Of a stretch of 64,000 bases of DNA, positions 31,783 through 56,137 are shown one piece after another (position 1 is the stretch's first letter; the number at the start of each line of letters is the position of its first letter). Origin of the DNA: Stenotrophomonas indicatrix (GTDB taxonomy: Bacteria > Pseudomonadota > Gammaproteobacteria > Xanthomonadales > Xanthomonadaceae); assembly GCF_002750975.1 (NCBI RefSeq), contig NZ_PEJS01000001.1, forward strand, positions 1,302,001-1,366,000, read 5' to 3'. The notes under the pieces were generated by a model, which was not told the DNA's origin, searched no databases, and was given only the letters and a program-made list of their open reading frames with translations. Both the position numbers and the translations under genes were made by a program.

Positions 31783-31910
31783 GTTTCCTGTGGGGAGGCG
31801 GGGTGGGTCCGGTTGCGGGAGACGCCGTAAACCCGTCCATGGGGGCTTGGCCGCGGCATCCATGCCGCGGACACTCCCGCAACCGGCCCCCCCCCGCCTT
31901 CGACAGATTT
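31783..31910 (+). repeat. Structured repeat, copy A (forward)
   Basis: Outer arms at 31797-31821 and 31874-31898 pair at 23 of 25 positions. The core starts ACGCCGTAAACCCGTCC. An internal hairpin, CCGCGGCAT-CC-ATGCCGCGG, lies at 31851-31870. The flanks are TTTCCTGTGGGGAG before and TTCGACAGAT after. It is preceded by REP hairpins and a CAACAG run. See the finding on the seven-copy family. Confidence 0.85.
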
Positions 31911-31948
31911 TCGCGATCTGCCGGAATGGCTTGGCCTGCTCTTGGTGG

Positions 31949-32056
31949 GTGTCGACCTTGGTCGACACGTAGATCCACGCCAGGCATGGATGTCCTTCGT
32001 TCAACTGTCGAAATATTCGAATTCAAAGGAGTCATCCACGCACGGCGTGGATCTAC
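31949..32056. repeat. REP cluster: inverted pair of GTAGATCC elements
   Basis: A GTGTCGACC/GGTCGACAC hairpin (about 31949-31968) is followed by GTAGATCCACGC (from 31969). At 32033-32056 the same element occurs inverted, ending GGATCTAC. The AT-rich stretch between the two (AAATATTCGAATTC) differs in composition from its surroundings. This is a typical REP doublet. Confidence 0.8.
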
Positions 32057-32071
32057 CGCAGATCGCGGTGA

Positions 32072-32198
32072 TCTGTCAGGGGCGGGGCGGTATGGGTAGG
32101 CAGGACCGTTGGCGCCATGGATGGCGCCATCGAGCCCCCATGGATGGGTTTACGGCGTGTCCTGCCTATCCATACCGCCCCGCCATCCCACGGAATGC
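32072..32198 (-). repeat. Structured repeat, copy B (inverted)
   Basis: Arms 32081-32106 and 32159-32184 pair at 26 positions with one G-T wobble. The internal hairpin GGCGCCAT-GG-ATGGCGCC is at 32111-32128. Read in its own orientation it follows a REP hairpin (32233-32255) and CAACAG-type bases, the same order as copies A and C. Confidence 0.85.
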
Positions 32199-32266
32199 CA
32201 GCTGTTGCTGTCGCTTGCGCAGTGGCTTCTGCAGGTGCAGGGCGCAGCCCTGCCGAAAAACACACA

Positions 32267-32297
32267 TAAAAAAACAGCAGGCCGAGGCCTGCTGTTT
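32267..32297 (-). terminator. Intrinsic terminator of the tRNA-Arg cluster
   Basis: AAACAGCAGGCC (32272-32283) pairs with GGCCTGCTGTTT (32286-32297). On the minus strand the stem is followed by a run of seven T. It lies 9 bases past the last tRNA. Confidence 0.9.
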
Positions 32298-32305
32298 CGG
32301 TGTAA

Positions 32306-32382
32306 TGGTGCGCCCGGAGAGATTCGAACTCCCGACCGCCTGGTTCGTAGCCAGGTACTCTATCCAACTGAGCTACGGGCGC
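32306..32382 (-). tRNA. tRNA-Arg (anticodon ACG), copy 1
   Basis: 77 nt with encoded CCA. Acceptor GCGCCCG at 32382-32376. Anticodon stem CCTGG/CCAGG with loop CTACGAA, hence anticodon ACG. It reads CGU/CGC/CGA after deamination to inosine. It is the last of three near-identical tandem copies in transcription order. Confidence 0.97.
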
Positions 32383-32414
32383 CAATTACATAAACTTGTT
32401 GTGTTGATCGTGTG

Positions 32415-32491
32415 TGGTGCGCCCGGAGAGATTCGAACTCCCGACCGCCTGGTTCGTAGCCAGGTACTCTATCCAACTGAGCTACGGGCGC
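32415..32491 (-). tRNA. tRNA-Arg (anticodon ACG), copy 2
   Basis: Apparently identical in sequence to the copy at 32306-32382, and 32 bases from it. The central member of the triplet, 77 nt with encoded CCA. Confidence 0.97.
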
Positions 32492-32549
32492 GCGGTACAC
32501 AATCAAATTTTACTGCACTTCCAGCGGCGGATGCTGAAGGTCTGTCGAG

Positions 32550-32626
32550 TGGTGCGCCCGGAGAGATTCGAACTCCCGACCGCCTGGTTCGTAGCCAGGT
32601 ACTCTATCCAACTGAGCTACGGGCGC
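32550..32626 (-). tRNA. tRNA-Arg (anticodon ACG), copy 3
   Basis: The first of the triplet in transcription order and the same 77-nt sequence. Its 5' end (32626) overlaps the last 10 bases of the upstream hydrolase gene, which stops at 32617. The tRNA must therefore be processed out of a transcript that can include the hydrolase mRNA, unless a promoter lies within that gene. Confidence 0.97.
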
Positions 32627-33543
32627 CCTGCGACAGGAGCGGAATTATGCGGATGTCGGCGCGAGTCGTCAACGCTTTTGTGAAAATTTTCACCCAACTG
32701 AATGAAAAACGCCTCTGCGACAGCCTCCGGGTGTTTCATCCACGCGAAGTGATCGGCCTGCGTACCCAGCTCCTGCGCAGAAAGCACGCGTAATTCCGAG
32801 GCGACATTCGGCAGTTTCGCCAGCAGCGCCTGCATTGATCCGCTTGGCGCCAGCCAATCGTCTTCCATCAGCACCGCCTGCGCACTGCCGTGCACGCGCG
32901 CCATCTGCGCATCCAGGTCCTCGTCCATGCCTGCGGCGGCATAGTGATTGCTCAGCCCTACGCGTGCCCAGTCGGCGATCAGTCCGCGTGCTTCGGTGCC
33001 GCCGAAACCCAGCCGGCGCCCGTGCAGCACGCCCTGGCGCCGCGCGATCCACGGCAGGAAGCGATAGATCAGTGGCAGCAGCCAACCGCGTGGTGGCGGG
33101 AACGTGCGCCAGAACGGTGTGCCGCTGGCGGCCAGCCACAATCGATCGAACGCCTGTGGCCGTCGTCCGGCGTGCACGCAGGCCAGCTGCCCGCCCAGGC
33201 TGTGGCCACCGATGATCCATGGCAGTACCTCCTGCGCGTCATCGGCATCGGCGAGCAGGGCCTGGCTGGCCGGCAGATCGTGGTCGAGAATCTGCCGGTA
33301 GCCCCAATCCTGGCTGCGCGACGGGCGCAGCGAACTGCTGCCATTGCCACGCCATTCGTGCAGGTAGACCGCCACGCCCCTGGCTGCAAGTGCCTGCGCC
33401 AGTGGTACGTAGTGGCGCGCGGCCACGCCCAGCGCCGGCAGCCACAACAGCCGTGCCAGCGGCTGTGCGGGCACGCAGGCGATCACGTCGAAACGGTGGC
33501 CATCGCCGCTGTTCACAGTGAGCGCGCGTAGCGAATCGCTCAT
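32617..33543 (-). CDS. Alpha/beta hydrolase downstream of thiD
   Basis: 308 residues, cytoplasmic. Nucleophile elbow GGHSLGG (Ser115); oxyanion segment WLPALGVAARHY; a late Asp in MEDDWLAPSG and His in QADHFAWM complete a likely triad. It resembles serine aminopeptidase/lysophospholipase-like hydrolases; the substrate is unknown. The start overlaps the thiD stop (ATGA at 33540-33543), so it is translationally coupled to a thiamine gene. The stop codon lies inside the tRNA-Arg gene. Confidence 0.85.
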   Translation of the reverse strand: MSDSLRALTVNSGDGHRFDVIACVPAQPLARLLWLPALGVAARHYVPLAQALAARGVAVYLHEWRGNGSSSLRPSRSQDWGYRQILDHDLPASQALLADADDAQEVLPWIIGGHSLGGQLACVHAGRRPQAFDRLWLAASGTPFWRTFPPPRGWLLPLIYRFLPWIARRQGVLHGRRLGFGGTEARGLIADWARVGLSNHYAAAGMDEDLDAQMARVHGSAQAVLMEDDWLAPSGSMQALLAKLPNVASELRVLSAQELGTQADHFAWMKHPEAVAEAFFIQLGENFHKSVDDSRRHPHNSAPVAGRP

Positions 33544-34349
33544 GCGTGGGGCGCCGCGCCGAAGTGGTCCAGTACCAGCACCTCGCTGCGACCGGGCGCA
33601 TAGCCCTGCTGCAATCCGCGCGCTACGTAGTCGATGCCGGCTTCGCAGGCATTGGCCAGGCTCAGCCCGTTGCAGAGCTGCGCGGCGATGGCCGAGGCCA
33701 GCGTGCAGCCCGTGCCATGCGCATCCAGTGGCAGGCGGGCATGGATGAATTCTTCGCTGCTGACGCCGTCGAAGTAGCGGTCGACCACGCGGTTGCCTTC
33801 GTGCAGGTGCCCGCCCTTCAGCAGCACTGCACCGGCGCCCAGATCAAGGAGCGAGGCGGCGGCCCGCTCTGCGTCGTTGCCATTGGCGATGCTGCGGCCG
33901 ACCAGCAGCTCCGCTTCGGGTGCATTGGGGGTGGCCAGGGTGGCCAGTGGCAGCAGCCGTTGGCGCATTGCCTGCAGCGCGCTGTCCTCCAGCAGGCGCG
34001 CACCGCTGGTGGCCACCATCACCGGGTCGAGCACCACGTGCGGTGGTCGATGGCGTTCCAGTGCATCGGCCACCGCGTGGATCACCTCGGCGTTGGCCAG
34101 CATGCCCAGCTTCACCGCGTGGATGTCGAAGTCGTCGAAGCAGGCTTCGATCTGCGCGCGCAGGAAGTCGATCGGTGGCACGTGCACGGCGCGGACGCCG
34201 CGGGTGTTCTGCGCGGTCAGTGCGGCAATCACCGACAGCCCATGCACGCGATGCGCGGCGAAGGCCTTCAGGTCAGCCTGGATGCCGGCGCCGCCGCCGG
34301 AGTCGGAGCCAGCGATGGTCAGGGCGGAAACAGGGGTGGTCGGGCTCAT
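33540..34349 (-). CDS. thiD: Hydroxymethylpyrimidine/phosphomethylpyrimidine kinase
   Basis: 269 residues, usual ThiD size. Ribokinase-fold motifs: TIAGSDSGGGAGIQADLKAF near the N-terminus, DPVMVATSGARLL centrally, and the anion-hole motif DAHGTGCTLASAIAA with catalytic Asp near residue 215. It phosphorylates HMP and HMP-P for thiamine synthesis. The start is ATG 34349 (MSPTTPVSALTIAGSDS); the open frame to 34544 runs through a repeat element. No TPP riboswitch is visible upstream; the gap to 34669 (about 320 bases) holds REPs and structured repeat C. Confidence 0.95.
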   Translation of the reverse strand: MSPTTPVSALTIAGSDSGGGAGIQADLKAFAAHRVHGLSVIAALTAQNTRGVRAVHVPPIDFLRAQIEACFDDFDIHAVKLGMLANAEVIHAVADALERHRPPHVVLDPVMVATSGARLLEDSALQAMRQRLLPLATLATPNAPEAELLVGRSIANGNDAERAAASLLDLGAGAVLLKGGHLHEGNRVVDRYFDGVSSEEFIHARLPLDAHGTGCTLASAIAAQLCNGLSLANACEAGIDYVARGLQQGYAPGRSEVLVLDHFGAAPHA

Positions 34350-34380
34350 GCAGCGATTGTGCCGTGCTGCCTTGCCAGGG

Positions 34381-34412
34381 GGTAGTGCCTGCCGGGCTGC
34401 GCCCGGCACCGG
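34381..34412. repeat. GTAG-headed REP hairpin
   Basis: GTAG-TGCCTGCCGGGCTGC followed by GCCCGGCACC. It is followed by CAACAG-type bases (34425-34436) and then structured repeat C, the same composite order as at 31683-31910. Confidence 0.75.
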
Positions 34413-34446
34413 CAGAAGCCGGGGCAACAGCAACAGCGGCTCTGGA

Positions 34447-34570
34447 TTTCTGCGGGGGAGGCGGGGCGGTGTCGGATTGCGGGGACGCCGCAAGTACGTC
34501 CTTGTAGGCTTGGCCGCGCCATCCATGGCGCGGACACCCCGCAATCCGACACCGCCCCGCCTTCGATAGC
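34447..34570 (+). repeat. Structured repeat, copy C (forward)
   Basis: Arms 34460-34484 and 34537-34561 are perfectly complementary over 25 bp. The core begins ACGCCGCAAGTACGTCC, with internal hairpins TACG/TGTA and CCGCGCCAT-CC-ATGGCGCGG (34513-34532). It lies between the DUF1275 stop and the thiD start. Confidence 0.88.
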
Positions 34571-34586
34571 TTCCTGGTGACGGTCA

Positions 34587-34658
34587 GTAGATCCACGCCA
34601 TGCGTGGATATCGCGGAAAAGATCGGATGGACAACGTAGATCCACGCCATGCGTGGAT
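34587..34658. repeat. Two direct GTAGATCC REP hairpins
   Basis: GTAG-ATCCACGC-CAT-GCGTGGAT occurs at 34587-34609 and again at 34636-34658, spaced 49 bases. The same sequence is found at 62863-62885. Confidence 0.88.
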
Positions 34659-34668
34659 GACGCCATGC

Positions 34669-35337
34669 TCAACGCCGCCAGCGTGCCCACTGCTGGTAGG
34701 ACACATAGCCCAGGCCGGTCAGGCCGGTCAGCAGGGCAGGGGCCAGCAGGGCGTCGTACTGCCAGCGCACGAACAGCCAGGCGCCGATCACGCCGCCAGC
34801 AAGGAAGCCGCTGATGATCAGGCCGCTCAGGGTCAGGCGTCGTACCTGCAGCGGCAGTCCGCGCAGCAGGTGGCCCAGGCCGATGCCGAGATCGGTGAAC
34901 ATGCCGCTGAGATGAGTGGTGCGTACGACGGCACCACTGAAGGTGGTGGCCATCGCATTCTGCAGTCCGCAGGCCATCGCGGCCGCCAATGCGCCCCATA
35001 TCTGATGCTGCTTGAACAGCGGAATGGCCGCCAGCAGCAACAGCGATTCCAATGCCAGCGCCACGCCGTAGTGCCGGCCGAGCTGCAGTGCGCTGTCCTG
35101 GATCAGCAGTCCGCTGACCATCGCGCCCAGCGAAAACGCGATCAGCAGACCCCACAAATGGCCGACCGCGCGCCAGTCACCTTGCGCCAGTGCCATGCCG
35201 AGCTGGCTGGTGCTGCCGGTCATGTGGCTGACCGCCTGGTGTTCAAAACCGAGGAAGCCAACCACATTGACCATGCCGGCCACGCACGACAGGGCGACCG
35301 CGCCGATCCAGACCCAGGTGGGCAGGCGGATTCCCAT
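34669..35337 (-). CDS. DUF1275 (YoaK-like) membrane protein
   Basis: 222 residues with about six transmembrane segments. The family start MGIRLPTWVWIGAVALSCVAGMVN is followed by GFEHQAVSHMTGSTSQLG, the DUF1275 hallmark, and later TTFSGAVVRTTHLSGMFTDL. Function in the family is unknown. Start ATG 35337 with GAGGGG upstream; a frame open to 35439 overlaps the neighbouring gene. It lies 10 bases after the upstream lipoprotein stop and is probably co-transcribed with it and the PhoH gene. Confidence 0.9.
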   Translation of the reverse strand: MGIRLPTWVWIGAVALSCVAGMVNVVGFLGFEHQAVSHMTGSTSQLGMALAQGDWRAVGHLWGLLIAFSLGAMVSGLLIQDSALQLGRHYGVALALESLLLLAAIPLFKQHQIWGALAAAMACGLQNAMATTFSGAVVRTTHLSGMFTDLGIGLGHLLRGLPLQVRRLTLSGLIISGFLAGGVIGAWLFVRWQYDALLAPALLTGLTGLGYVSYQQWARWRR

Positions 35338-35347
35338 GGCAGGCCCC

Positions 35348-35854
35348 TCAGGGCCCGCCGAAGCCGCCGTTGAACTGCAGCTCGCTGAAGGTCCCGCTGG
35401 TCGGGTCGAAGACCGCGCCCCAGAACTGCGCGCCGCCATCGCAGACCCGCACCGCCTCGCGGGCGGGCCGCAGGCTGTTGTCTTCAGGCAGATGGAACGC
35501 GTTGATGTAGATCACCTGCTTTCCGTCCAGCTCGATGCCGACGTACTGGCGATCGAAATCCAGCACGTGTGGCACCTGCGCTTCCAGCGATGCCAGCTTC
35601 GCTTCCAGCTGGTCCACCTGCTGCCGGCTCGGTGCCCAGTAGCCGCTGACCCGCCCGGCCTCGCGGCCGGGGCTGGGGCGCGAGCAGGTGTCGAGCACCT
35701 GCGCGGCGATGATCGGGCGGGTGACCACCCAGGACTGGCCACTGCGTTCTGTGGTCGGCACGCTGGCCGGTCCCTGCGTGGTCGCGCAGGCACCGAGCAG
35801 CGTGGCAATGGCGACCGCCAGCGATGGCAGCAGCAGACGGGTGCAGCGGTTCAC
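35348..35854 (-). CDS. Lipoprotein of unknown function
   Basis: 168 residues with a lipoprotein signal (lipobox LLGAC, Cys near residue 23), starting at GTG 35854. That codon overlaps the PhoH stop and is preceded by GGAGG at a good distance. The mature protein has a short coiled-coil-like stretch (QQVDQLEAKLASLEAQ) followed by DRQYVGIELDGKQVIYINAF. I do not recognise the family. Operon position suggests an envelope role linked to its PhoH/DUF1275 neighbours, with no known mechanism. Confidence 0.75.
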   Translation of the reverse strand: MNRCTRLLLPSLAVAIATLLGACATTQGPASVPTTERSGQSWVVTRPIIAAQVLDTCSRPSPGREAGRVSGYWAPSRQQVDQLEAKLASLEAQVPHVLDFDRQYVGIELDGKQVIYINAFHLPEDNSLRPAREAVRVCDGGAQFWGAVFDPTSGTFSELQFNGGFGGP

Positions 35855-37254
35855 AACACCTCCGAGGCGTAATCGGCCAGCCGCGAGCGTTCACCGCGAC
35901 GCAGCGTGATGTGCGCGCTGTGCGGCCAGTTCTTGAAGCGGTCCACGGCGTAGGTCAGGCCCGACGTGGTTTCGGTCAGGTACGGGGTGTCGATCTGTTC
36001 GACGTTGCCCAGGCAGACGATCTTGGTGCCGGGGCCGGCACGGGTGATCAGCGTCTTCATCTGCTTGGGGGTCAGGTTCTGCGCCTCGTCCAGGATCAGG
36101 TAACGCGACAGGAACGTACGGCCGCGCATGAAGTTCATCGAGCGGATCTTGATGCGGCTGGCGAGCAGGTCATTGGTGGCCTGGCGGCCCCAGGTGCCGC
36201 CTTCCTGGTTGTGCGTCAGCACTTCCAGGTTGTCGGTCAGCGCGCCCATCCACGGCGTCATCTTCTCTTCCTCGGTACCGGGCAGGAAGCCGATGTCCTC
36301 GCCGACGCTGACGGTGGCGCGGGTCATGATGATCTCGCGGTAGCGCTGTTGGTCCATCGTCTGCGCCAGGCCGGCGGCCAGTGCCAGCAGGGTCTTGCCG
36401 GTGCCGGCGGTACCGAGCAGGGTGACGAAGTCGATCTCCGGATCCATCAGTGCGTTGAGTGCGAAGTTCTGCTCGCGGTTGCGCGCGCTGATGCCCCACA
36501 CGGCATGGCTGCCGTGGCGGAAGTCATCGACCAGCGACAACACCACCTTGCCATCGCCGACGATCCTGCTGACGCGCAGCTCGACTTCGTCTTCGCCCGG
36601 CAGGTACACGTACTGGTTCGGGTACCACTCTTCGCCGTCCTGGGCGAGGATTTCGTAGTGCGTGCGGCCCTTGTCGCTCCAGCTGCGCAGATCCTCGCCG
36701 TGGCGCTTCCAGAAGTCTTCCGGCAGCTCGGTGGCGCCGGTGTAGAGCAGGCTGAAATCGTCCAGCGCGCGGTCGTTCTCGTAGTCTTCCGAGACGATGC
36801 CGGCGATGGCCGCCTTGATGCGCAGGTTGATGTCCTTGGAAACGAACACCACCGGGATCTCCGGCGTTTCTTCCTTCAGCGCCAGGATCGCGCCGAGGAT
36901 GGCGTTGTCCGGGATGACCTTGCCAAAGCTCTTGCCCGCGTCGAAATGGCTGGTCTGGAAGCGCAGCAGGCCCACGCTCTGCTTGCCGCGCAGCTGCAGG
37001 CCCTGCGGCCGCTGCAGCGGAATGCCCTCGGCCAGGTTGTCCAGGCCCGAAGCCTGCACCAGCTCGTTGAGGAAGCGGCTGACCTGGCGGGCATTGCGGC
37101 TCGCTTCGGTCGTGCCCTTCTTGCCGTTGTCCAGCTCCTCGATCACCTGCATGGGCAGGTAGACATCGTGCTCCTCGAATTTGAACAGCGCGGTGGGATC
37201 GTGCATCAGCACGTTGGTATCCAGCACGTAGATGCGCTTGCCTCGGGTCATCAT
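35851..37254 (-). CDS. PIN-PhoH fusion ATPase (PhoH2/YlaK type)
   Basis: 467 residues. N-terminal PIN domain (YVLDTNVLMHDPTALF; acidic residues for nuclease activity) at about 1-150; C-terminal PhoH ATPase with Walker A LGTAGTGKTLLALAAG near 245 and Walker B-like LDEAQNLTPKQMKTLITRAG near 350. Such fusions unwind and cleave RNA in other bacteria. Two adjacent ATGs at 37254 and 37251 are possible; AGGAA is better spaced for the second. It overlaps the downstream lipoprotein by 4 bases. Confidence 0.92.
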   Translation of the reverse strand: MMTRGKRIYVLDTNVLMHDPTALFKFEEHDVYLPMQVIEELDNGKKGTTEASRNARQVSRFLNELVQASGLDNLAEGIPLQRPQGLQLRGKQSVGLLRFQTSHFDAGKSFGKVIPDNAILGAILALKEETPEIPVVFVSKDINLRIKAAIAGIVSEDYENDRALDDFSLLYTGATELPEDFWKRHGEDLRSWSDKGRTHYEILAQDGEEWYPNQYVYLPGEDEVELRVSRIVGDGKVVLSLVDDFRHGSHAVWGISARNREQNFALNALMDPEIDFVTLLGTAGTGKTLLALAAGLAQTMDQQRYREIIMTRATVSVGEDIGFLPGTEEEKMTPWMGALTDNLEVLTHNQEGGTWGRQATNDLLASRIKIRSMNFMRGRTFLSRYLILDEAQNLTPKQMKTLITRAGPGTKIVCLGNVEQIDTPYLTETTSGLTYAVDRFKNWPHSAHITLRRGERSRLADYASEVL

Positions 37255-37335
37255 CGGTTCCTGGTTACGGACAGGGAAAAACCACCACGGCCTGCTGCAG
37301 GGCAGGGTGGTGGCGGACAAAGTGGGCGATGGGAC

Positions 37336-37815
37336 TCACTTGGACTGATTGGCCTTCAGTTCGGCGAGGACGGCGTCGGCATGGCCGGCGACCTTGACCT
37401 TGCGCCATGACTGCACGATGCGGCTGTCGGGGGAAATCAGGAAGGTGCTGCGCTCGATGCCACGTACCTGCTTGCCGTACATGTTCTTCATCTTGATCAC
37501 GTCGAAGGCGCTGCACAGCGCTTCGTCGGCATCACTGACCAGCGGGAACGCGAAGCCCTGCTTGGCACAGAAGTTGTCGTGGGACTTCACCGAGTCGCGC
37601 GAGACGCCAAGCACGACCGCGCCCGCTTTCCTGAAGTCGGGCAACAGTGCGTTGAAGTCGATGCCCTCGGTGGTGCAGCCCGGGGTGCTGTCCTTGGGGT
37701 AGAAGTACAGCACCAGCCACTGGCCGGCGTAATCGCCGAGGGTGGCCTGGGCGCCGCCGGACAGCGCCAGCGGCAGGGAGAGGGTGGTGCTGTCCAGGGT
37801 ATCGCCGTTGTTCAT
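37336..37815 (-). CDS. bcp: Peroxiredoxin PrxQ/Bcp
   Basis: 159 residues reducing peroxides with thioredoxin. The peroxidatic cysteine is Cys47 in KDSTPGCTTEG. The resolving cysteine five residues later, found in E. coli Bcp, is missing (TTEGID). Instead Cys83 lies in SHDNFCAKQ. As I recall, Xylella PrxQ uses exactly this Cys47/Cys83 pair, so this is the atypical two-Cys form. Start ATG 37815 with AAGGA upstream. It is in the same direction as PhoH, 81 bases upstream of it. Confidence 0.93.
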   Translation of the reverse strand: MNNGDTLDSTTLSLPLALSGGAQATLGDYAGQWLVLYFYPKDSTPGCTTEGIDFNALLPDFRKAGAVVLGVSRDSVKSHDNFCAKQGFAFPLVSDADEALCSAFDVIKMKNMYGKQVRGIERSTFLISPDSRIVQSWRKVKVAGHADAVLAELKANQSK

Positions 37816-37906
37816 GAGGTCCTTCTGTCGAGCCTGGGTTCTTTCTACGACAATTGCATGAAACGCCACGCGCCCGTGAGGAGCGCGCGAAGAATCAGGG
37901 TTTCAA

Positions 37907-38467
37907 TCAGAACTTCATCGGGTCCATGATCGCGTCCAGGTTCAAGTGGTCGCAGAACTCGAGGAAATCATCGCGCAGGGCGGCGATATGCATGTTGGCC
38001 GGCACGCCGATGGTGACCTGTGCGCTGAACATTTCCGCACCGGTCTGCATGGCGCGGTAGCGCGTGCTCTGCAGGGTCTCGATGGTGATGCCCTGGCGGT
38101 CGAAGAAATCGGCCAGCTGGAACAGGATGCCCGGCTTGTCGGCGGCGATCACCTCGACGATGTACGGCAGCAGGTTGGACTGCGCCTGCTTGGCTTCGGT
38201 GCGATACCACACCAGCTTCAGGCCTTCCTCGCGCTCGAGCCGGGTCAGCATCGCTTCCAGCTTGGCGACCGAATCCCAGGAGCCGGTGGCCAGCGCGGTC
38301 ACCGAGACATCGCGGCCCACGGTGGCCAGGCGTGCATCCACCAGATTGCACCCGCTGTCGGCGATGCGGCGGGTGACGGACAACAGGGGGGACTCCGGAT
38401 GCGTCGTATAGGCGTTGATCAGGAGGTGGTTTTCGCTCGGCGCTGGGCGCGGGGTGGTGTCGGTCAA
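37907..38467 (-). CDS. gcvR: GcvR-like tandem ACT-domain regulator
   Basis: 186 residues from TTG 38467 (GGAATC upstream). Two ACT domains: the first from about 10 to 90 (NHLLINAYTTHPESPLLSVT), the second from about 100 (IVEVIAADKPGILFQLADFF). It resembles the glycine cleavage repressor accessory protein GcvR (190 residues in E. coli). It should bind glycine and modulate a GcvA-type regulator. The start is uncertain because the frame stays open to 38569 without an ATG. Divergent from dapA, as in several gammaproteobacteria. Confidence 0.82.
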   Translation of the reverse strand: MTDTTPRPAPSENHLLINAYTTHPESPLLSVTRRIADSGCNLVDARLATVGRDVSVTALATGSWDSVAKLEAMLTRLEREEGLKLVWYRTEAKQAQSNLLPYIVEVIAADKPGILFQLADFFDRQGITIETLQSTRYRAMQTGAEMFSAQVTIGVPANMHIAALRDDFLEFCDHLNLDAIMDPMKF

Positions 38468-38631
38468 GGCGATTCCGGGTAATGCATGCGTTAGTCTGAA
38501 TGCCCGCCAGAGGCGGGGATCCACCGGTGTCCAGCATACTTGCCCGTGCTTTCGCGCCGCAAGTAACATTCAGAACGCCCGCGCCCTTCCGTGGCGGACG
38601 TTTTCCCTCCCCAGCCAAGAGCAGCACGTCC

Positions 38632-39525
38632 TTGTCCCTTTCCGGCCTCATCACCGCGCTGGCGACCCCCTTCCGGGCCGACGGCGCACTCGACCCCGAC
38701 GGTTGGCAGCGCCTGCTGCACCTGCAGCTGGAGGGCGGCGTCCAAGGCGTTGTCGTTGCCGGCTCCACCGGCGAGGCAGCCACCCTGTCCGATGCGGAGT
38801 ACGACCAGCTGCTGGCCAGCGCGGTCGAACGCATTGCCGGCCGCGTTCCGGTCCTGGCCGGTACCGGCCTGTCCGGCACCGCCAAAACCATCGAACAGAC
38901 CCGCCGTGCTGCCGCGCTTGGCGCCACCCACGCGCTGGTGGTCACCCCGCCGTACGTGCGGCCGACCCAGGCTGGCCTGATCGCGCATTACCGCGCGGTC
39001 GCCGACCAGGCCGGAGTGCCGGTGGTGCTGTACAACGTGCCTGGCCGCACCGGCTGCGACATGCTGCCGGAGACCGTGGCCGAGCTCGCCAGCCATCCGA
39101 ACATCGTCGGCATCAAGGAAGCGGTGGGCGACACCGGCCGCGTGCGGGCACTGCTGGACCTGCGCAGCTCGACCTTTGCCGTGCTCACCGGCGATGACGG
39201 CACGGCCGCACGTTCGATCCAGGCCGGCATGGACGGTCTGATCTCGGTCGGTTCCAACGTGCTGCCCGGCGCCTATCGCCGGATGTGCGACCTGGCCGCT
39301 GCCCGCGACCACGAAGCCGTTGAATCCTGGGACGCTCGCCTGCAGCCGTTCCATGACTTCTGCGGTGTCGAATCCAACCCGATTCCGGTCAAGGCGCTGT
39401 TGCGTCGGATCGGCATCGGTCACGATCTGCGCCTGCCGCTGCTGCCGCTTTCGGCCGCACACGCGCCTGCCGCCGACCATCTCGCCGGCGATATCGCCGC
39501 CCTCGAAGCCCTTTCCAGCCACTGA
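38632..39525 (+). CDS. dapA: 4-Hydroxy-tetrahydrodipicolinate synthase
   Basis: 297 residues, first committed step of lysine and diaminopimelate synthesis, joining pyruvate and aspartate semialdehyde. Motifs: [18 protein letters not shown], the catalytic Tyr in [11 protein letters not shown] and the Schiff-base Lys in [14 protein letters not shown]. The family N-terminus [13 protein letters not shown] follows TTG 38632, which I take as the start; no ATG is available nearby and the ribosome site is weak. Followed after 32 bases by a BamC-like lipoprotein, as dapA-bamC in E. coli. Confidence 0.95.
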
Positions 39526-39557
39526 CCTTCCGTCTTGGTCTGATCCAGGAGATTCAC

Positions 39558-42511: not shown

Positions 42512-42637
42512 TGTTCCGAGGGGAGGCGGCAGGCCAGCCGCTCCAGGACACGCCGTATACCCATCCATGGGGGCTCGATGGCGCCATCCATGGCGCCAAC
42601 GGCCCTGGAGCGGCTGGCCTGCCGCCTTTCGACAGAT
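42512..42637 (+). repeat. Structured repeat, copy D (forward)
   Basis: Arms 42525-42547 and 42604-42626 are perfectly complementary over 23 bp. Core hairpins are CCCAT/ATGGG and GGCGCCAT-CC-ATGGCGCC (42580-42597). The flanks are TTCCGAGGGGAGG before and TTTCGACAGAT after. Confidence 0.88.
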
Positions 42638-42723: not shown

Positions 42724-42846
42724 ATTGTCAGGAGGGGGCGGGCCACCCTGTCCTGGACCGTTGGCGCCATGGATGGCGCCATCGAGCACCATGGATGGGC
42801 TTTTGCGTGTCCAGGACAGGGTGGCCCGCCCCCTCCCTCGCAGGAA
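42724..42846 (-). repeat. Structured repeat, copy E (inverted)
   Basis: Arms 42731-42757 and 42810-42836 are perfectly complementary over 27 bp, with a sequence unrelated to the arms of copy D 100 bases away. Internal hairpin at 42763-42780. D and E face each other. Confidence 0.88.
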
Positions 42847-49169: not shown

Positions 49170-49183
49170 GCGCGGCGCGCCGG

Positions 49184-50155
49184 ATGCGTGCGTCGATGCA
49201 CTGGCGCGACCTCGTTCGACGAAGGCAGCCCGAGGTGTGGGCGGGTCTGCACCTGACCGTGCAGGCCCCCGTGCGCCCTGCGCTTGTGGTTTCGGTCTGC
49301 CCGCCGGACCGCATACGGGTGGGTACCGAGGAACGCCCCATGTTGTGGGCGAGGGTGGAGCCCGACTACTTCGGCGTGGACCTGCTTCGCAGCGCCTCCC
49401 CGGCCTCGCCGGCGATCATTCCACCGATCACGGCTGCCGAGGCGCGGGCGTTGCATTCGGATGATCCGGTGCGGACTGCCGCAGCGTGGGCACGTCATTT
49501 CGCACGGGCCCTTACCCGTTCGGATCGATCTCCGCTGGCACAGGGCGAATGGCTGCTGCAGCCGACGCTGCATGGCCTGGAGCGTGCGCGGATGCCGCTC
49601 ACGCTCGCGTCAGATGCGCTGGCCCGACCGGCGGTCGATACCTTGGACTGGTCGAGCGTGACGCACGGCGAATGCCTGCCTCCTGTCCTGCTGCGGGCAC
49701 CGTCACTGGCCACGGATGGGCGGGTCAAGGCCTGGGCCAGGCAGGCCCGGGCAGGATCACTGCCACCGGTGCTGCTGATGTGGATCAGTGGCCTGCAGGC
49801 ACACGTGGTGCTGGACGGACACGACCGGCTGCAGGCCGCCGTGCAGGAGGGCGCAGATGTGCCGGTGCTGGTTCTGCTGCGTCATGGCGAGCGGTGCGTG
49901 GATGAGCAGGGCCTGGCGCGGGCTGACATCATCGTCGAGCGGTCTGGCGGCGCGGACATGACAGTCGAGGCCCGCAACCGACTGCTGCTCGATCTGTATA
50001 GCCCTGCGCGCGACGTCCTGCCCAGTCGGGCAGATCTGATGCGTGGTGGGGTGGATCAATGGGTTGCAGAAGTGGACGCCGAGGCCAGGCAGGGCGAGGA
50101 TGTCCAGATCAATGATCCGCTGACCCGTGAGCTGCTGGCGCAGCTGAGGGGCTGA
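49184..50155 (+). CDS. Unknown protein ending in a copied Pgi tail
   Basis: 323 residues from ATG 49184, 14 bases after pgi. No signal peptide or membrane helix. A central motif, AHVVLDGHDRLQAAVQEG (about residues 206-223), resembles the ParB/sulfiredoxin-like fold signature LDGHHRL, but a full domain is not clear. The last 21 residues are nearly identical to the Pgi C-terminus, and the DNA behind them is a direct repeat. The gene therefore arrived by, or was fused through, duplication of the pgi 3' end. Function unknown. Confidence 0.7.
   Translation: MRASMHWRDLVRRRQPEVWAGLHLTVQAPVRPALVVSVCPPDRIRVGTEERPMLWARVEPDYFGVDLLRSASPASPAIIPPITAAEARALHSDDPVRTAAAWARHFARALTRSDRSPLAQGEWLLQPTLHGLERARMPLTLASDALARPAVDTLDWSSVTHGECLPPVLLRAPSLATDGRVKAWARQARAGSLPPVLLMWISGLQAHVVLDGHDRLQAAVQEGADVPVLVLLRHGERCVDEQGLARADIIVERSGGADMTVEARNRLLLDLYSPARDVLPSRADLMRGGVDQWVAEVDAEARQGEDVQINDPLTRELLAQLRG
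50090..50155 (+). repeat. Direct repeat, right copy
   Basis: Near-identical to 49104-49169 (63 of 66 bases) and includes a stop codon. Together the copies bracket one gene. Confidence 0.93.
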
Positions 50156-50167
50156 CGCGGGCGGGGA

Positions 50168-50233
50168 ATGCCGCCGGGCATTGCCCGGCGCTACCCTTCG
50201 TCATGCCGGTAGCGCCGGGCCATGCCCGGCGAA
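50168..50233. repeat. Inverted pair of GTAG REP hairpins
   Basis: GCCGGGCATTGCCCGGCGCTACC and, facing it, GGTAGCGCCGGGC-CATGCCCGGCG. A REP doublet between convergent genes (unknown protein and response regulator). Confidence 0.88.
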
Positions 50234-50245
50234 TACGACGACGCA

Positions 50246-50809
50246 TCACCGGCTCGGATCGCGTTCCGGGCTCGGCCGCTTGGCCAGCTTGCGCTGCAGC
50301 GAACGCCGGTGCATGCCGAGCAGCCGCGCGGCCGCCGACACATTGCCGCCGGTTTCATGCATCGCCTGCTGGATGTGTTCCCACTGCAGGCGGCTGATCG
50401 GGGTCATCGCATCAGGCACTTCCATCTCGCCGTCATCGGCGGGGCCATCGTCTTCCTCGCCCAGCGCACGCAGGATCATCGGCACCGTCGATGGCTTCGG
50501 CAGGTAGTCGTCGGCGCCCAGCTTGATCGCCTCCACTGCGGTGGCGATGCTGGCATAGCCGGTCACCAGCAGGATCCGCATGTCTGCGCGCAGCGCGCGC
50601 AACGGCTGTATCAGGGCCAGCCCGGAATCGCTGCCCAGCTTCAGGTCGATCAGCGCGAACGCCGGCGGATGCTGGCGGGCCAGTGCCAGCGCGCTGGCGG
50701 CATCCTGTGCGGTCTGCGTCTCCAGCCCTTTGCGGGCCAGGCTGCGCTGCAGGGTGCGCAGGTAGAGTTCGTCGTCGTCGACCAGCAGGCCAAGGGTGGA
50801 AGCAGTCAT
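50246..50809 (-). CDS. RegA/ActR/PrrA-type response regulator
   Basis: 187 residues from ATG 50809, properly spaced from GAGGA; an in-frame ATG at 50815 touches the ribosome site. N-terminal receiver with acidic pocket LLVDDDELY and phospho-Asp in FALIDLKLGSDSG; conserved Lys in DYLPKPS. C-terminal Fis-type helix-turn-helix (GGNVSAAARLLGMHRRSLQRKL). This two-domain form without an AAA+ domain is diagnostic of RegA. It follows the sensor kinase by 2 bases. It should control redox and energy genes. Confidence 0.92.
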   Translation of the reverse strand: MTASTLGLLVDDDELYLRTLQRSLARKGLETQTAQDAASALALARQHPPAFALIDLKLGSDSGLALIQPLRALRADMRILLVTGYASIATAVEAIKLGADDYLPKPSTVPMILRALGEEDDGPADDGEMEVPDAMTPISRLQWEHIQQAMHETGGNVSAAARLLGMHRRSLQRKLAKRPSPERDPSR

Positions 50810-50811
50810 GG

Positions 50812-52032
50812 TCATTCCTCGCGGGGGGCCAACGGCAGGCGGAAGCCGACGCGGCTACCGGCCCCTTGGGCCGGGCGCATCCACATCTCGCCGTCCAGGC
50901 GTTCGATGGTGGCATGGGACAGGGCAAGACCGACGCCCATGCCTTCACTCTTGCTGCTGCCGAACAGCTTGCCCGGCAGCACGGCGGCGCGGGCGTTGAA
51001 GCCATGGCCGTAGTCGCGCACTTCGCCGATCAGGTCGTCGCCTTCGATGCGCAGGCTGAGATCGACGCGCGGTCGGCCGGCCTGCTCGCCGGCATCGGCC
51101 GCGTTGTTCAGCAGCACCATCAGCAGGTGGCCGACGCCCGGGTCCAGCGGCAGGCGCAGGGGTGCGTCGTCGTTGCGATGCAGGTCGATGGTCGGGCGCA
51201 CCAGCCGCCATTGCTCCAGCACCTGCTGGGCCGTGGAGTGGGCGCGCCCGGGGCCGTCATTGGAGGCCGGGGCGGCCAGGGCCAGCACGCGCTCCCGGCA
51301 CTGCACCAGCAGTTCGCGCAGGGTTTCCATGTCCTCGCGCACTTCCGGTTCTTCGCTGCGTTCGGCCACGTCGTCGGCGAGCAGGGTCATCGTCGCCAGC
51401 GGCGTGTTCAGTTCATGCGCCACCGAGGCTGCATGCGTGGCCAGGGCGACGATGCCCTCGTTGCGCGCGAAGCGTTCGCGCAGTGCCGACAGTTCCAGCT
51501 CGCGCTCGCGCAGCGCGATCGCCAGCCGGGTAGAGAAGATCAGTACGACCGCAGCGGACAGCAGGAAGGTGGCGATCACGCCCCAGCGATTGAGGTCCAG
51601 TGCGTTGAAATAGCCCGCCGGCAGCGGTTGCCCGAACAGTCCGCTGGCGGCGTAGCCCAGCAGGCAGGCGCTGGCCACGGCCAGGGCCCAGCGCAGGGGC
51701 AGGGCGAAGGCCGCCAGGGCGATCAGGATCAGGAACAGCGAGCCGAACGGATTGGCGATGCCGCCGCTCCAGCTGACCATCCATGTGAGGATGATCACGT
51801 CCACCAGGATGTGGCCGAAGGCGGTCAGCGGCGCGGTATCGGCCGGCTCCGGGCGCAGCTGCGTATACAGGTTGAATACGGCGAGCACGGCAACGCCCGA
51901 CCACAGCGGCAGTTGCGGCAAGGGCAGTCCCAGCACCCAGGTCGCAACCAGGATGGTGGCCGCCTGGCCAGCCACGGCCAACCAGCGCAGGCTGCACAGG
52001 GTTCGGAGAAACGGGGCGTCGGGACCGGTCAT
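50812..52032 (-). CDS. RegB/ActS/PrrB-type redox sensor kinase
   Basis: 406 residues. Six N-terminal transmembrane helices (about 15-175) include SGGIANPFGSL, the quinone-binding GGxxNPF motif of RegB. The H-box HAASVAHELNTPLATM follows. A cysteine 39 residues after the phospho-histidine (LLVQCRERV) sits close to the redox-active cysteine of RegB. The ATPase domain shows LNNAADAG, VRDYGHGF and GMGVGLALSHATIERL. Start ATG 52032. Divergent from ispG with a 114-base gap. Confidence 0.92.
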   Translation of the reverse strand: MTGPDAPFLRTLCSLRWLAVAGQAATILVATWVLGLPLPQLPLWSGVAVLAVFNLYTQLRPEPADTAPLTAFGHILVDVIILTWMVSWSGGIANPFGSLFLILIALAAFALPLRWALAVASACLLGYAASGLFGQPLPAGYFNALDLNRWGVIATFLLSAAVVLIFSTRLAIALRERELELSALRERFARNEGIVALATHAASVAHELNTPLATMTLLADDVAERSEEPEVREDMETLRELLVQCRERVLALAAPASNDGPGRAHSTAQQVLEQWRLVRPTIDLHRNDDAPLRLPLDPGVGHLLMVLLNNAADAGEQAGRPRVDLSLRIEGDDLIGEVRDYGHGFNARAAVLPGKLFGSSKSEGMGVGLALSHATIERLDGEMWMRPAQGAGSRVGFRLPLAPREE

Positions 52033-52146
52033 TCGCGCCCATCGTATGCGTTCGCGGGGACGGCTGCCTGCGACAATCGGCCGCAGCCGGACTGTCGCCT
52101 GAATGCGACACACCCGGAAGGTCGGGGCGGGCGTTAGAATGCCCGC

Positions 52147-53412
52147 ATGCATGACGCCGTCACCCGCCCTACAGCCCCCTCCGATGCCACTTCCTGGCCC
52201 CGTCGCCTGACCCAAGCGGTCCAGATCGGTGGAGTCACCGTGGGCGGTGGCAAGCCGGTCGTGGTGCAGTCGATGACCAATACCGACACGTCCGATGTGG
52301 CGTCCAGCGTCAAGCAGGTCGCTGAGCTCTGGCGTGCCGGCTCGGAAATGGTGCGCCTGACCGTCAACACGGTCGAAGCGGCCGCGGCGATCCCGCGCAT
52401 CGTCGACAAGCTGGCGATGATGGGCATCGACGTACCGCTGATCGGCGACTTCCACTACAACGGCCACCAGCTGCTGACGGCCGAGCCGGCCTGCGCCGAA
52501 GCACTGGCCAAGTACCGCATCAACCCGGGCAACGTAGGCTTCGGCAAGAAGAAGGACCTGCAGTTCGCGCAGCTGATCGAGTTCGCCATCCGCTACAACA
52601 AGCCGGTGCGCATCGGCGCCAACTGGGGCTCGCTGGACCAGGCCCTGGCGGCCAAGCTGATGGACGAGAACAACCACCGCGAACAGCCCTGGGACGCCGG
52701 CCGCGTGCTGCGCGAGGCGCTGATCCGTTCGGCACTGGATTCGGCCGAGCAGGCCGTCGAGCTGGGGTTGCCGCGCGATCGCATCATCCTGTCGGCCAAG
52801 GTCAGCGGCGTGCAGGAGCTGATCGCGGTCTACCGCGACCTGGCCCAGCGTTCGGACTTCGCCCTGCATCTGGGTCTGACCGAAGCCGGTATCGGCAGCA
52901 AGGGCATCGTCGCCTCGGCGGCGGCGCTCAGCGTGCTGCTGCAGGAAGGCATCGGCGACACCATCCGCATTTCGCTGACGCCCGAACCGGGCCAGTCGCG
53001 CACGCAGGAAGTGATCGTCGCCCAGGAACTGCTGCAGACCACCGGCCAGCGCGCCTTCACTCCGCTGGTCACGGCGTGCCCGGGCTGCGGCCGTACCACC
53101 TCGGAATTCTTCCAGGAGCTGGCCAAGGTGGTGCAGAACCACGTGCGCGAAAAGATGCCGCTGTGGAAGATCCAGCACCCGGGTGCGGAGAACATGACCC
53201 TGGCGGTGATGGGCTGCGTGGTTAACGGGCCGGGTGAGTCGCGGCATGCCAACATCGGCATCTCGCTGCCGGGCACCGGTGAAGCACCGTCGGCACCGGT
53301 GTTCGTCGATGGCGAGAAGAAGGTGACCCTGCGTGGCGAGAACATCGCCCAGGAATTCGTCGCCCTGATCGATGATTACGTTGAACGCACCTATGTCCGA
53401 AGCGCCGGGTAA
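52147..53412 (+). CDS. ispG: HMBPP synthase (4-hydroxy-3-methylbut-2-enyl diphosphate synthase)
   Basis: 421 residues; penultimate MEP-pathway step for isoprenoids, using a [4Fe-4S] cluster. The cluster ligands lie in [17 protein letters not shown] and [20 protein letters not shown]-terminal TIM-barrel motifs [19 protein letters not shown] and [14 protein letters not shown] are present. Start ATG 52147. Its end overlaps the PAP2 gene by 20 bases. It is divergent from a redox two-component system, which may or may not regulate it. Confidence 0.96.
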
Positions 53413-54142
53413 GCCGACGATCCTCGCTGCACCGGAGCCCGCCTCCGGCTTCCGCCACTGGATGGCGCGCAATGCTTGGCGGCTGCTGCTGCTGTTTGCC
53501 GGCGTGCTGCTGCCGCTGGCCGGATTCGTCGCCCTGGCCGACGAGGTGCACGAGTTCGAATCCTTCCATTTCGATGCGCCGCTGCTGTGGCAGATGCACG
53601 GCCTGCATTCGCCGTGGCTGGACCATGTGTTCGTGCTGCTGTCGAAGCTGGGCTACGAGTGGTTCCTGATCCCGGCCGATGTGCTGATTGTCGGTGCACT
53701 GGCCTGGCACCGGCGTTGGCGTGAAGCGACCTTCGTGGCCGTGAGCTTCGTAGGGTCGGCGCTGCTCAACATGGGCAGCAAGCACTTCTTCCAGCGTGAC
53801 CGGCCCAGCCTGTGGGAATCGATCGCGCCGGAATCCACGTTCAGTTTCCCCAGTGGCCACGCGATGGGCTCGATGACCCTGGCGGTCACCCTGGTGCTGC
53901 TGGCCTGGAATACCCGCTGGCGCTGGCCGGTACTGCTGCTGGCGCCGTCGTTCAGCCTGCTGGTAAGCGTTTCCCGGGTCTATCTGGGGGTGCATTACCC
54001 CTCCGACATCCTCGCCGGGTGGTGTGCCGCGCTGGTTTGGGTGGTAGGGTGCTATCTGGTCATGTTCAGCCGCCGTCATCCATGGCGACGGCACGGTTCG
54101 CCGCCAGCGACGGCCAGCGAAGCGATCACGCAAGGGGAGTGA
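53393..54142 (+). CDS. PAP2-family membrane phosphatase
   Basis: 249 residues with about six membrane helices. The three-part acid phosphatase signature is complete: [17 protein letters not shown] and [17 protein letters not shown]. Likely to dephosphorylate undecaprenyl pyrophosphate or phosphatidic-type lipids. Start ATG 53393 (MSEAPGKPT) lies inside ispG; 53372 is also possible. Overlap with ispG, an isoprenoid gene, fits a role in undecaprenyl carrier recycling (inference). Confidence 0.87.
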
Positions 54143-54344
54143 CGTGGATGCCCTCCCAAGGGCGTCTACCTGAGGGACGGGTTGTTTCGTTGTAACGGGT
54201 TCTGCAGGGCAAGGGGCACGATCAGTGCGTGAAGAATGTGATGCGCAAGGCAGAACGCCGGAATTGCGCAACATCCGCGCTTGCAGTGGTCAGGTGCTCC
54301 TGCCTAGGTTGACCCGTATTGGCCGCATTCGAAGAGGTACGTGA

Positions 54345-54992
54345 ATGACGATTCGAGTCTACCTGGTGGATGACCATGCGTTGGTCCGCACCGGGATGAA
54401 AATGATACTGTCGAGTGAAACCGACATTGAAGTGGTGGGCGAGGCCGAAACGGGCGAAGACGCGCTGCCCGCGATCCGCCAGCTGCAACCGGACGTGGTG
54501 CTGTGTGATCTGCACCTGCCCGGCGTGAGCGGGATGGAAGTAACCGAGCGCATCGTCCGTGGCCACCGCAGCACGCGGGTGGTGATCGTGTCGGTGCTGG
54601 AAGACGGTCCGCTGCCCAAGCGCCTGCTCGAGGCCGGCGCCGCCGGTTACATCGGCAAGGGCTGCGATGCGCAGGAACTGCTGCGTGCGGTGCGCGACGT
54701 AGCTGCCGGACGGCGCTACCTGGGCACGAGCATCGCGCAGAACCTGGCGTTGTCCACCGTGGAAGGCAACGGCTCGCCGTTCGACAACCTGTCGCCGCGT
54801 GAGCTGGAAGTGGCATTGCTGCTGACCCAGGGCCTGCGCCAGGAAGATATCGCCCGTCGTCTGAGCCTGAGCGCGAAGACGGTCAACACGCACAAGGCGC
54901 GGTTGTTCGAGAAGATGGGAATCCACGACAACATCGCGTTGGCGCGGATGGCCAGCCAGTACGGGCTGGTGGATCCGGCACGGCCGCTGTAA
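54345..54992 (+). CDS. GacA/UvrY-like LuxR-type response regulator
   Basis: 215 residues. Receiver domain with YLVDDHALVRTGMKM and phospho-Asp in VVLCDLHLPGVSG; linker; C-terminal LuxR helix-turn-helix LSPRELEVALLLTQGLRQED followed by LSLSAKTVNTHKARLFEKMG. Size and pattern match GacA, which turns on Rsm small RNAs that titrate CsrA. The uvrC gene usually downstream of gacA is absent here. Start ATG 54345 with GAAGAGG upstream. The 200-base upstream gap holds no gene. Confidence 0.87.
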   Translation: MTIRVYLVDDHALVRTGMKMILSSETDIEVVGEAETGEDALPAIRQLQPDVVLCDLHLPGVSGMEVTERIVRGHRSTRVVIVSVLEDGPLPKRLLEAGAAGYIGKGCDAQELLRAVRDVAAGRRYLGTSIAQNLALSTVEGNGSPFDNLSPRELEVALLLTQGLRQEDIARRLSLSAKTVNTHKARLFEKMGIHDNIALARMASQYGLVDPARPL

Positions 54993-55035
54993 GGATTTCA
55001 GCCAACGGCTGAGCCCCTCGCGGTGGTGGGACGGA

Positions 55036-55160
55036 GTTCGTGGGGTTGGCCCTGCGGAGGGATCGCGCAGGGGACGCCGTGAATCCATCCCTGGAGGCTC
55101 GGGCGCGCCATCCATGGCGCTTACGCCCCTGCGCGATCCCTCCGCAGGGCCACGGACAGG
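55036..55160 (+). repeat. Structured repeat, copy F (forward)
   Basis: Arms 55048-55073 and 55126-55151 are perfectly complementary over 26 bp. Internal hairpins are TCCA/TGGA and GCGCCAT-CC-ATGGCGC. It lies between the convergent response regulator and eda genes. Confidence 0.88.
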
Positions 55161-55211
55161 TTCCGTGCGCTGCCACCGCAGAATGAAGAAGGGAACGGAA
55201 GGAGCGGGTCG

Positions 55212-55257
55212 CGCGCTTTGCGCGCTTGGGGCGGATCCCTTTCCCGGCGGGAAAGGG
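55212..55257. terminator. Two hairpins after eda
   Basis: CCCTTTCCC-GGC-GGGAAAGGG (55237-55257) and GCGCGC-TTT-GCGCGC (about 55211-55225). They lie just past the eda stop on the minus strand and probably end the Entner-Doudoroff transcript. Confidence 0.55.
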
Positions 55258-55275
55258 CTCTGACCCCGCAGTGCG

Positions 55276-55935
55276 TCAGTTGCCGCGTACGCGCTTGACG
55301 ATCTTCGCGGCCTGCGCGGCGCTTTCGCGCACCTTGTCCCACTGGCCGGCCTCGATCCAGCTGCCCGGCACCATCCACGAGCCACCGATGCAGACCACGT
55401 TCTTCTGCTCCAGGTACTCGGCGGCGGTGTTCTCGGTGATGCCACCGGTCGGGCACAGCTTGAGGTCGGCGATCGGGCCGGCTACGCCCTTGATCATCGC
55501 CAGGCCGCCCACGGCCGTGGCCGGGAACAGCTTGCACACGCGGAAACCGCGCGCGTAGAGCGCCAGCAGTTCGGTCGGCGTCGCCGCACCCGGTACCACC
55601 GGCAGCGGTGCCGCAGCCAACGCATCGGCCAGCCCCGGCGGCGTGCCCGGGGTCACCAGGAAATCGGCGCCCGCATCGATCGACTGCTGCATCTGCTCCA
55701 CCGTCAGCACCGTACCGGCGCCGACCACCACATCCGGCAGCTCACGCTTGAGCATCGCCAGCGCTTCCATCGCCACCGGCGTACGCAGCGTCAGCTCGAT
55801 CGCCGGCAATCCGCCTTCCAGCAGCGCCGCGCTGACCGCACGTGCCTGGTCCAGCGTATGAATCGTCACCACCGGCAGGATGCCGGCCGCATGCAACAGC
55901 TCCGCCGCCCGCACCTGATGTTGTTCGATACCCAT
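55276..55935 (-). CDS. eda: KDPG/KHG aldolase
   Basis: 219 residues; splits 2-keto-3-deoxy-6-phosphogluconate into pyruvate and glyceraldehyde-3-phosphate. Motifs: general acid Glu in IELTLRTPVA, PGTPPG, and Schiff-base Lys in VCKLFPATAVGG; LCPTGGITENTAAEYL near the C-terminus. Last gene of the zwf-glk-pgl-edd-eda operon. A structured repeat (copy G) separates it from edd, leaving a 237-base gap, in contrast to the tight packing of the earlier genes. Confidence 0.96.
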   Translation of the reverse strand: MGIEQHQVRAAELLHAAGILPVVTIHTLDQARAVSAALLEGGLPAIELTLRTPVAMEALAMLKRELPDVVVGAGTVLTVEQMQQSIDAGADFLVTPGTPPGLADALAAAPLPVVPGAATPTELLALYARGFRVCKLFPATAVGGLAMIKGVAGPIADLKLCPTGGITENTAAEYLEQKNVVCIGGSWMVPGSWIEAGQWDKVRESAAQAAKIVKRVRGN

Positions 55936-56007
55936 AGCTCTGCTTCTGCCTTTGCTTTCGCTCTAGTTGTGCTTTCAATGATCACTTCGCGGCGTATCGG
56001 CGCCGGA

Positions 56008-56137
56008 AACTGTGATGCGGCGGAGGGCAGGGCGTCGCCAGGACCGTTCGCGCCATGGATGGCGCGATCGAGCCTACAGGGATGTATTTACGGCGTGTCC
56101 TGGCGACGGCCTGCCCTTCGCCGCCCCCTGGAAACCA
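56008..56137 (-). repeat. Structured repeat, copy G (inverted), inside edd-eda
   Basis: Arms 56017-56043 and 56098-56124 pair at 25 of 27 positions, plus one G-T wobble. Internal hairpins are TACA/TGTA and CGCGCCAT/ATGGCGCG. It is the only copy inside an operon, between edd and eda. Confidence 0.85.

Follow-up and report, generated by a model that had tools for sequence, protein, structure and literature searches.

A dispersed structured element of Stenotrophomonas indicatrix resembling an RsmA/CsrA dock and related to the orphan RNA TwoAYGGAY

Introduction

What kind of element keeps a fixed core while the long stem around it takes a different sequence in each neighbouring copy? The question is raised by a 64,000-nucleotide stretch of the Stenotrophomonas indicatrix genome (assembly GCF_002750975.1, contig NZ_PEJS01000001.1, positions 1,302,001 to 1,366,000; hereafter the window), in which seven such elements occur. 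An original prediction, made from the letters alone, had proposed selection on a folded RNA or folded single-stranded DNA, knew no named family that fitted, and offered two options, a structured RNA class or a mobile element linked to repetitive extragenic palindromic (REP) sequences and their RAYT transposases. The analysis described here points, on sequence evidence, to a structured element predicted to fold on the strand that reads GGA in its loops, similar to a dock for the protein RsmA/CsrA and present in unusually many copies. The elements are a divergent, high-copy relative of the known orphan RNA TwoAYGGAY.

Structure and covariation

An independent finder, which demands TCC in both hairpins on the strand used by the original prediction (GGA on the opposite strand), recovered exactly seven elements with arms and core in the window (Table 1), and seven own-genome matches of a covariance model built from the copies (alignment of 32 own-genome copies, 43 pairs) fell there as well. 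The seven predicted elements with a core of about 52 nt closed by self-complementary arms were therefore recovered by both routes. In the fold, the long stem closes a core of 50–56 nt with two small hairpins, forming a three-way junction. The arms measure 24–28 bp and all seven pairs differ, and the recount agreed with the prediction in finding four perfect pairs and three with one or two mismatches. That arms are unlike in every copy holds for the window and not genome-wide, as 19 of the first 250 distinct elements have an arm sequence in common; the flank motifs described as conserved were likewise confirmed in part, being weaker or absent in other lineages.

Among the 32 own-genome copies, double changes were found in 33 of 43 pairs (shuffled mean 22.6), and the covariation score was 0.563, compared with 0.150 for shuffled and at most 0.089 for slid alignments. 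A second set comprised 68 copies from 56 loci whose titles do not name Stenotrophomonas. Here 91.7% of stem cells were paired (shuffled 55.6%), double changes affected 1063 cells (shuffled 314), and covariation scored 0.847 (shuffled 0.204; slid at most 0.112), in an alignment that was fitted to the model and so leans towards structure. Paired cells, doubly changed cells and covariation score all lie above the shuffles, and the arms covary as had been claimed. Together with the strand asymmetry described below, this covariation strongly supports selection on a folded single strand, whether RNA or DNA.

Strand of the fold

Departures from Watson-Crick pairing differ between the strands. In 332 distinct arm pairs read on the GGA strand, 8463 cells were Watson-Crick, and the departures comprised 221 G-U versus 26 A-C, 74 G-A versus 16 C-U and 34 G-G versus 2 C-C, with 9 U-U and 7 A-A in addition. 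Counted on the opposite strand, the first 250 elements gave 50 A-C and 46 C-A versus 5 G-T and 4 T-G; both arms are alike, so the asymmetry follows the type of base, not the side of the arm. On the GGA strand the flanks show no shortage of C (C 0.31, G 0.28 in the own genome) and so give no indication of a mutation bias specific to C. When 369 elements were folded as RNA, the GGA strand was the more stable in 279 and the opposite strand in 87. We infer that the GGA strand, opposite to the strand of the original prediction, is the functional one, and of the two options offered there a structured RNA fits better than a REP/RAYT-linked mobile element.

Apical loops

On the GGA strand, nearly every hexaloop reads C[ANGGAN]G, and this applies to both apical loops. 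Over four sets, A stood at position -2 of GGA in 245/245, 252/253, 41/41 and 188/191 hexaloops, with base -1 free, and the closing pair was C-G in 245/245, 253/253, 41/41 and 181/191. The two GGA motifs were spaced 23 nt apart in 120/121, 116/120, 18/19 and 72/88 two-loop elements, which could give room for one RsmA/CsrA dimer across both loops. Own-genome loop and mismatch counts refer to 125 elements with 106 distinct arm pairs, from loci partly chosen by a pattern fixing loop letters; two ANGGAN hexaloops were present in 121 of the 125, and base -1 was a pyrimidine in 187 of 245 hexaloops and a purine in the rest. In the broad set, hairpin 1 was selected by the core search pattern, while hairpin 2, which was free of that pattern, formed 89 hexaloops (88 with A at -2) and 12 pentaloops in 101 elements (loci L238-L361, some from Stenotrophomonas).

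In an excerpt of published work on RsmE/CsrA, the high-affinity site is defined as an ANGGAX hexaloop seated directly on a stem; AGGGA and AAGGA pentaloops are named as strong as well (PMC4005645). The element hexaloops correspond to this definition, with ANGGAX directly on the stem; the pentaloops mostly differ in sequence from the two named. A further GGA was located at most 20 nt 5' of the stem in 85% of the 125 own-genome elements (TCC in 13%) and in 17% of the 23 elements of family f7, where its rarity marks it as a lineage feature.

At a few loci an apical hairpin carries another, hairpin-rich insert (hairpin 2 in L103, L106, L057 and L275; the hairpin 1 side in L050 and L124). The insert is much alike in the first four, and the folded loops look like a target of some other repeat.

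Copy number and distribution

The whole genome (4.56 Mb, 9 contigs) gave at least 150 model matches. A core pattern with up to 3 mismatches matched 109 times and its reversed control not once, which excludes chance. The finder recovered 126 elements in the own-genome stretches examined (60 of 70 planned regions), compared with 150 model matches. Neighbouring matches less than 1.5 kb apart were in '+-' order in 45 of 46 pairs and '++' in one, and 39 of the 45 had a gap of 106–166 bp. This order is not universal, since neighbouring matches in two Xanthomonas loci (L286, L312) were '-+'.

Model matches were found in 33 of 61 relatives and in 69 of 250 genomes of the order, from 23 of 77 genera, and several genomes of the same genus had none. 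A 26-base core pattern was present in at least 119 stretches of gammaproteobacterial records. Model counts were also obtained for twelve further genomes, chosen for already having a core-pattern match: Stenotrophomonas maltophilia E301 (122) and D457 (122), Xanthomonas euroxanthea (at least 150), X. hortorum (at least 150), Microbulbifer aggregans (132), Marinobacter azerbaijanicus (133), Rheinheimera sp. EpRS3 (57), Arenimonas daejeonensis (31), Shewanella carassii (24), Alteromonas halophila (18), Vreelandella glaciei (9) and Ectothiorhodospira shaposhnikovii (1). The covariance-model search of Stenotrophomonas and Xanthomonas that had been proposed thus found the family in both.

One 100-bp copy had no blastn match in plasmid and phage records. 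Five contigs of a viral collection (L357-L361) carry the core pattern with palindromic arms and represent phage or adjoining host DNA. Two genomes of the same genus with a single match each (L057 in G020, L070 in G012) apparently carry it at the same locus, with matching open reading frames on both sides, presumably fadA and galU.

CsrA was detected in 194 of 250 genomes of the order and in 62 of the 69 with elements, and the seven without it are at most 90% complete; the CsrA and element surveys, of 250 genomes each, are assumed to cover the same genomes. None of the 20 CsrA-negative genomes listed had an element, the seven element-positive ones being among the other 36 negatives. Fisher's test of CsrA against elements gave p 0.004 on related genomes, which are not independent. 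Co-occurrence with CsrA, a necessary condition for a partnership, therefore largely holds and is not proof of one.

Relation to known RNAs and repeats

The Rfam model of TwoAYGGAY (RF01731) matched the whole own genome nine times, and all nine matches lay on listed elements, on the opposite (GGA) strand. The best score was 43.2 bits compared with a gathering cut-off of 43, and it was the only one of the nine to pass. In the twelve other genomes 17 matches were found, all below the cut-off; the seven in the two S. maltophilia genomes, the ones compared with element positions, all fell on elements, on the opposite strand. None of 14 control genomes had a match. A cmscan alignment of one copy spanned positions 1–168 of the 168 of the model, which belongs to clan CL00106 together with RsmY and RsmW. 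The opinion that no named family fits was thus overtaken. The prediction had also held that an Rfam match would speak against novelty, and here the nine RF01731 sites count in part, the window copies being below the cut-off.

At the gathering score Rfam detected only tRNAs in the window, with no RF01731, and one tRNA only in seven further loci; RF01731 was also absent from one locus at E up to 10. Between 42400 and 42950, a search at E up to 1 returned no RF01731; RsmW reached 23.3 bits (cut-off 52) and RsmY 15.2 bits (cut-off 57), both far short of their thresholds. Because the gathering cut-off was not reached except by one copy, the elements are filed as a relative and not as a member of TwoAYGGAY.

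Excerpts of the literature list TwoAYGGAY for human gut, gamma-Proteobacteria and Clostridiales (PMC2864571), propose that it binds CsrA, and describe a long outer stem, with tandem G-A pairs mentioned in one stem (PMC4333381). As described in these excerpts, it shares with the elements a three-way junction, a long and poorly conserved closing stem and two hairpins with AUGGAU-type loops. The elements differ in that hairpin 1 takes any base before GGA, and in their number: 100–150 or more copies in a genome, with at least 150 in the own genome, of which one reaches the cut-off, and none at the cut-off in the twelve other genomes. Titles and abstract beginnings in the literature contained no report of TwoAYGGAY as a high-copy dispersed element, and six core strings did not occur in the papers searched.

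Sponge RNAs of the CsrB/RsmX/Y/Z type likewise present GGA in hairpin hexaloops, but are one or few multi-site genes, whereas the elements are many two-site copies around which no promoter or terminator signal was seen. RsmU of the related genus Xanthomonas, in the published excerpt, is an RsmA-binding RNA processed from a 3'-untranslated region with no Rfam homologue, and in an electrophoretic mobility shift assay changing all four of its GGAs did not abolish RsmA binding (PMC7694677), which calls for caution with loop-based arguments. It is a single-locus RNA, unlike the dispersed elements, and is set apart here by that partial description and not by sequence.

REP-type repeats, which we take to be SMAG, are also high-copy intergenic palindromes and share these genomes with the elements, which they frequently adjoin or separate. 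SMAG/GTAG REPs are given in an excerpt as 20–40 bp with a GTAG tag (PMC3733652). In contrast to these and to REPINs, each element spans about 105 bp, its arms vary while its two loops are conserved, and no Y1 gene was found linked to it. By eye, 125–126 own-genome copies had no consensus GTAG or CGTC tag at the arm feet. In the own genome, none of the 150 listed elements is within 5 kb of any of the four Y1-transposase matches. Of 61 genomes, 51 have Y1 genes and 33 have elements, and G004 is one of those with Y1 but no element. The suggested REP/RAYT link was not supported.

Genomic context and the eda locus

Gene context was taken from a home-made gene caller, which shortens some starts. The 126 own-genome elements lie in 50 convergent, 65 tandem and 11 divergent gaps. 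In 85 cases a preceding gene reads sense to the strand of the original prediction, and in 82 of these its stop came 31–137 nt ahead of the element.

Table 1. Features of the window discussed in the text; for elements the strand is the GGA strand, the putative functional one and the reverse of that used in the original prediction
Feature	Position	Strand	Description
Element 1	31796..31899	(-)	26-bp arms, 2 mismatches, 52-nt core; left of '+-' pair
Element 2	32081..32184	(+)	26-bp arms, 1 mismatch; right partner of element 1
Element 3	34459..34562	(-)	26-bp perfect arms
Element 4	42524..42627	(-)	24-bp perfect arms; left of '+-' pair
Element 5	42731..42836	(+)	28-bp perfect arms; right partner of element 4
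Element 6	55047..55152	(-)	27-bp perfect arms; between response-regulator gene and 2-keto-3-deoxy-6-phosphogluconate (KDPG) aldolase gene
Element 7	56017..56124	(+)	28-bp arms, 2 mismatches; upstream of KDPG aldolase gene
rsmA/csrA gene	1935..2138	(+)	67 aa; proposed protein partner, in the same window by chance

Three tRNA genes of equal score (32309-32626) adjoin the first element pair. In the window (31740-32300) and at many other loci, many elements had CAACAG-type tandem units on their outer side and palindromes of the GTAG or GTCGACC type on their inner side. An outer stem of at least 8 complementary bases beyond the long arms was present in 53 of 245 elements compared with 24 of 245 shuffled, which is suggestive for one flank class. 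A flank class with the block GCCAACGGCTGAGCCCCT (L005, L007, L012 and about 25 other copies) has an extra outer stem of 8–12 bp, itself varying with compensation.

At 30 eda loci of the genus, several different arm alleles were found, mostly perfect or nearly so, and variants differ by matched changes in both arms (e.g. L101, L108, L111). The clean empty sites that the prediction had suggested seeking in orthologous loci were not what was encountered: at least four eda alleles in which no element was recognised (L105, L109, L118 and L122, upstream of eda) keep one arm, and look like remnants of hairpin deletion. The alleles at this locus show change in place, exchange between alleles and loss; precise gain was not seen. 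A mobile core entering pre-existing terminator arms was considered and rejected, on the grounds of the one-arm remnants at eda and of arms of about 24–30 bp that are palindromic in each lineage examined.

Discussion

We lean towards reading the elements as TwoAYGGAY-like RNA modules that act as RsmA/CsrA docks, marking transcripts and buffering RsmA. A self-complementary stem of 24–30 bp would raise a three-way junction bearing two apical hairpins, both of which end in an RsmA/CsrA hexaloop C[ANGGAN]G (in a few elements elsewhere, a pentaloop), and one RsmA dimer could clamp both. Transcripts running through these intergenic sites on the GGA strand would carry a stable RsmA dock, RsmA bound there would affect the fate of that transcript locally, and 150 or more docks per genome would together buffer free RsmA. 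The letters of the stem would be free because only duplex stability counts, and so would drift with compensation.

Several observations weigh against this reading or do nothing to help it. In the 68-copy set, pairs with double changes (39/43) were not above the shuffles (mean 37.0; 19 of 500 as high), and pair types numbered 127, below the shuffled 140.2. The excess in the first 250 elements was about tenfold in all three mismatch classes, and such near-equality does not single out RNA wobble and also fits folded single-stranded DNA; the G-A to C-U ratio, too, is not expected from RNA energetics alone and is compatible with folded DNA. GGA in both hairpins was set by the finder, and the pattern partly fixed the loop letters in own-genome loci. 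As many as 132 of the 194 CsrA-positive genomes have no element. Of 126 elements, 80 had the GGA strand and 85 the other strand sense to a preceding gene, giving no orientation bias, and a crude test around the elements found neither a position-specific AT peak nor an excess of TATAAT nor a T-tract.

Were the element instead a non-autonomous mobile DNA hairpin, which a trans-acting transposase, RAYT/IS200-like or unknown, would move in the form of folded single-stranded DNA with the loops as recognition letters, its at least 150 dispersed intergenic copies, inverted '+-' pairs, recurring arm sequence and patchy distribution would be readily understood, and the order of mismatches, G-T, G-A and G-G over A-C, C-T and C-C, fits folded DNA too. 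Y1 genes, the only family searched, are neither near the elements nor follow their distribution, and the pair at 55047/56017 brackets the KDPG aldolase gene and not a transposase. Element-free eda alleles include one-arm remnants, and no precise insertion was seen at eda, the one locus inspected closely. We therefore regard this explanation as unlikely.

Less probable again is a role at mRNA 3' ends, where a strong hairpin would be required for stabilisation, processing or termination, independently of RsmA. The scarcity of divergent relative to convergent gaps and the short distance from the preceding stop favour it, but no T-tract was seen, and stability alone leaves the invariant ANGGAN loops, their spacing and the cross-genus conservation of the core unexplained. 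Neutral palindrome correction, in which template switching during replication keeps the arms matched with no selection on the fold, would account for arm departures in only about 4% of arm cells (389/8852) and for different arm alleles at one locus that are perfect or nearly so, and the one-arm remnants suggest replication trouble at the hairpin. It predicts strand-symmetric departures, whereas the G-U and A-C counts on the GGA strand are far from equal, and it leaves the conservation of core and loops without an explanation; as the sole cause we consider it very improbable, although it may still speed arm change.

Returning to the dock reading, a wider extension is put forward tentatively, and we would sooner doubt than assert it: many Gammaproteobacteria may hold a chromosome-wide array of up to 100–150 or more docks for RsmA/CsrA dimers, each on its own evolving stem, serving as a distributed sponge and as transcript marks. 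If true, CsrA would be controlled in a way that differs from dedicated small RNA genes, and Stenotrophomonas would have a candidate RsmA titrator. If bound, the dimer docks per genome would approach the number of elements and bear on the free RsmA level. An RNA family of unknown function, mostly below its own database threshold here, has close relatives among abundant structured intergenic elements of several gammaproteobacterial genomes, and the hundreds of natural variants of one helix, with a probable functional strand, are useful for studies of compensatory evolution.

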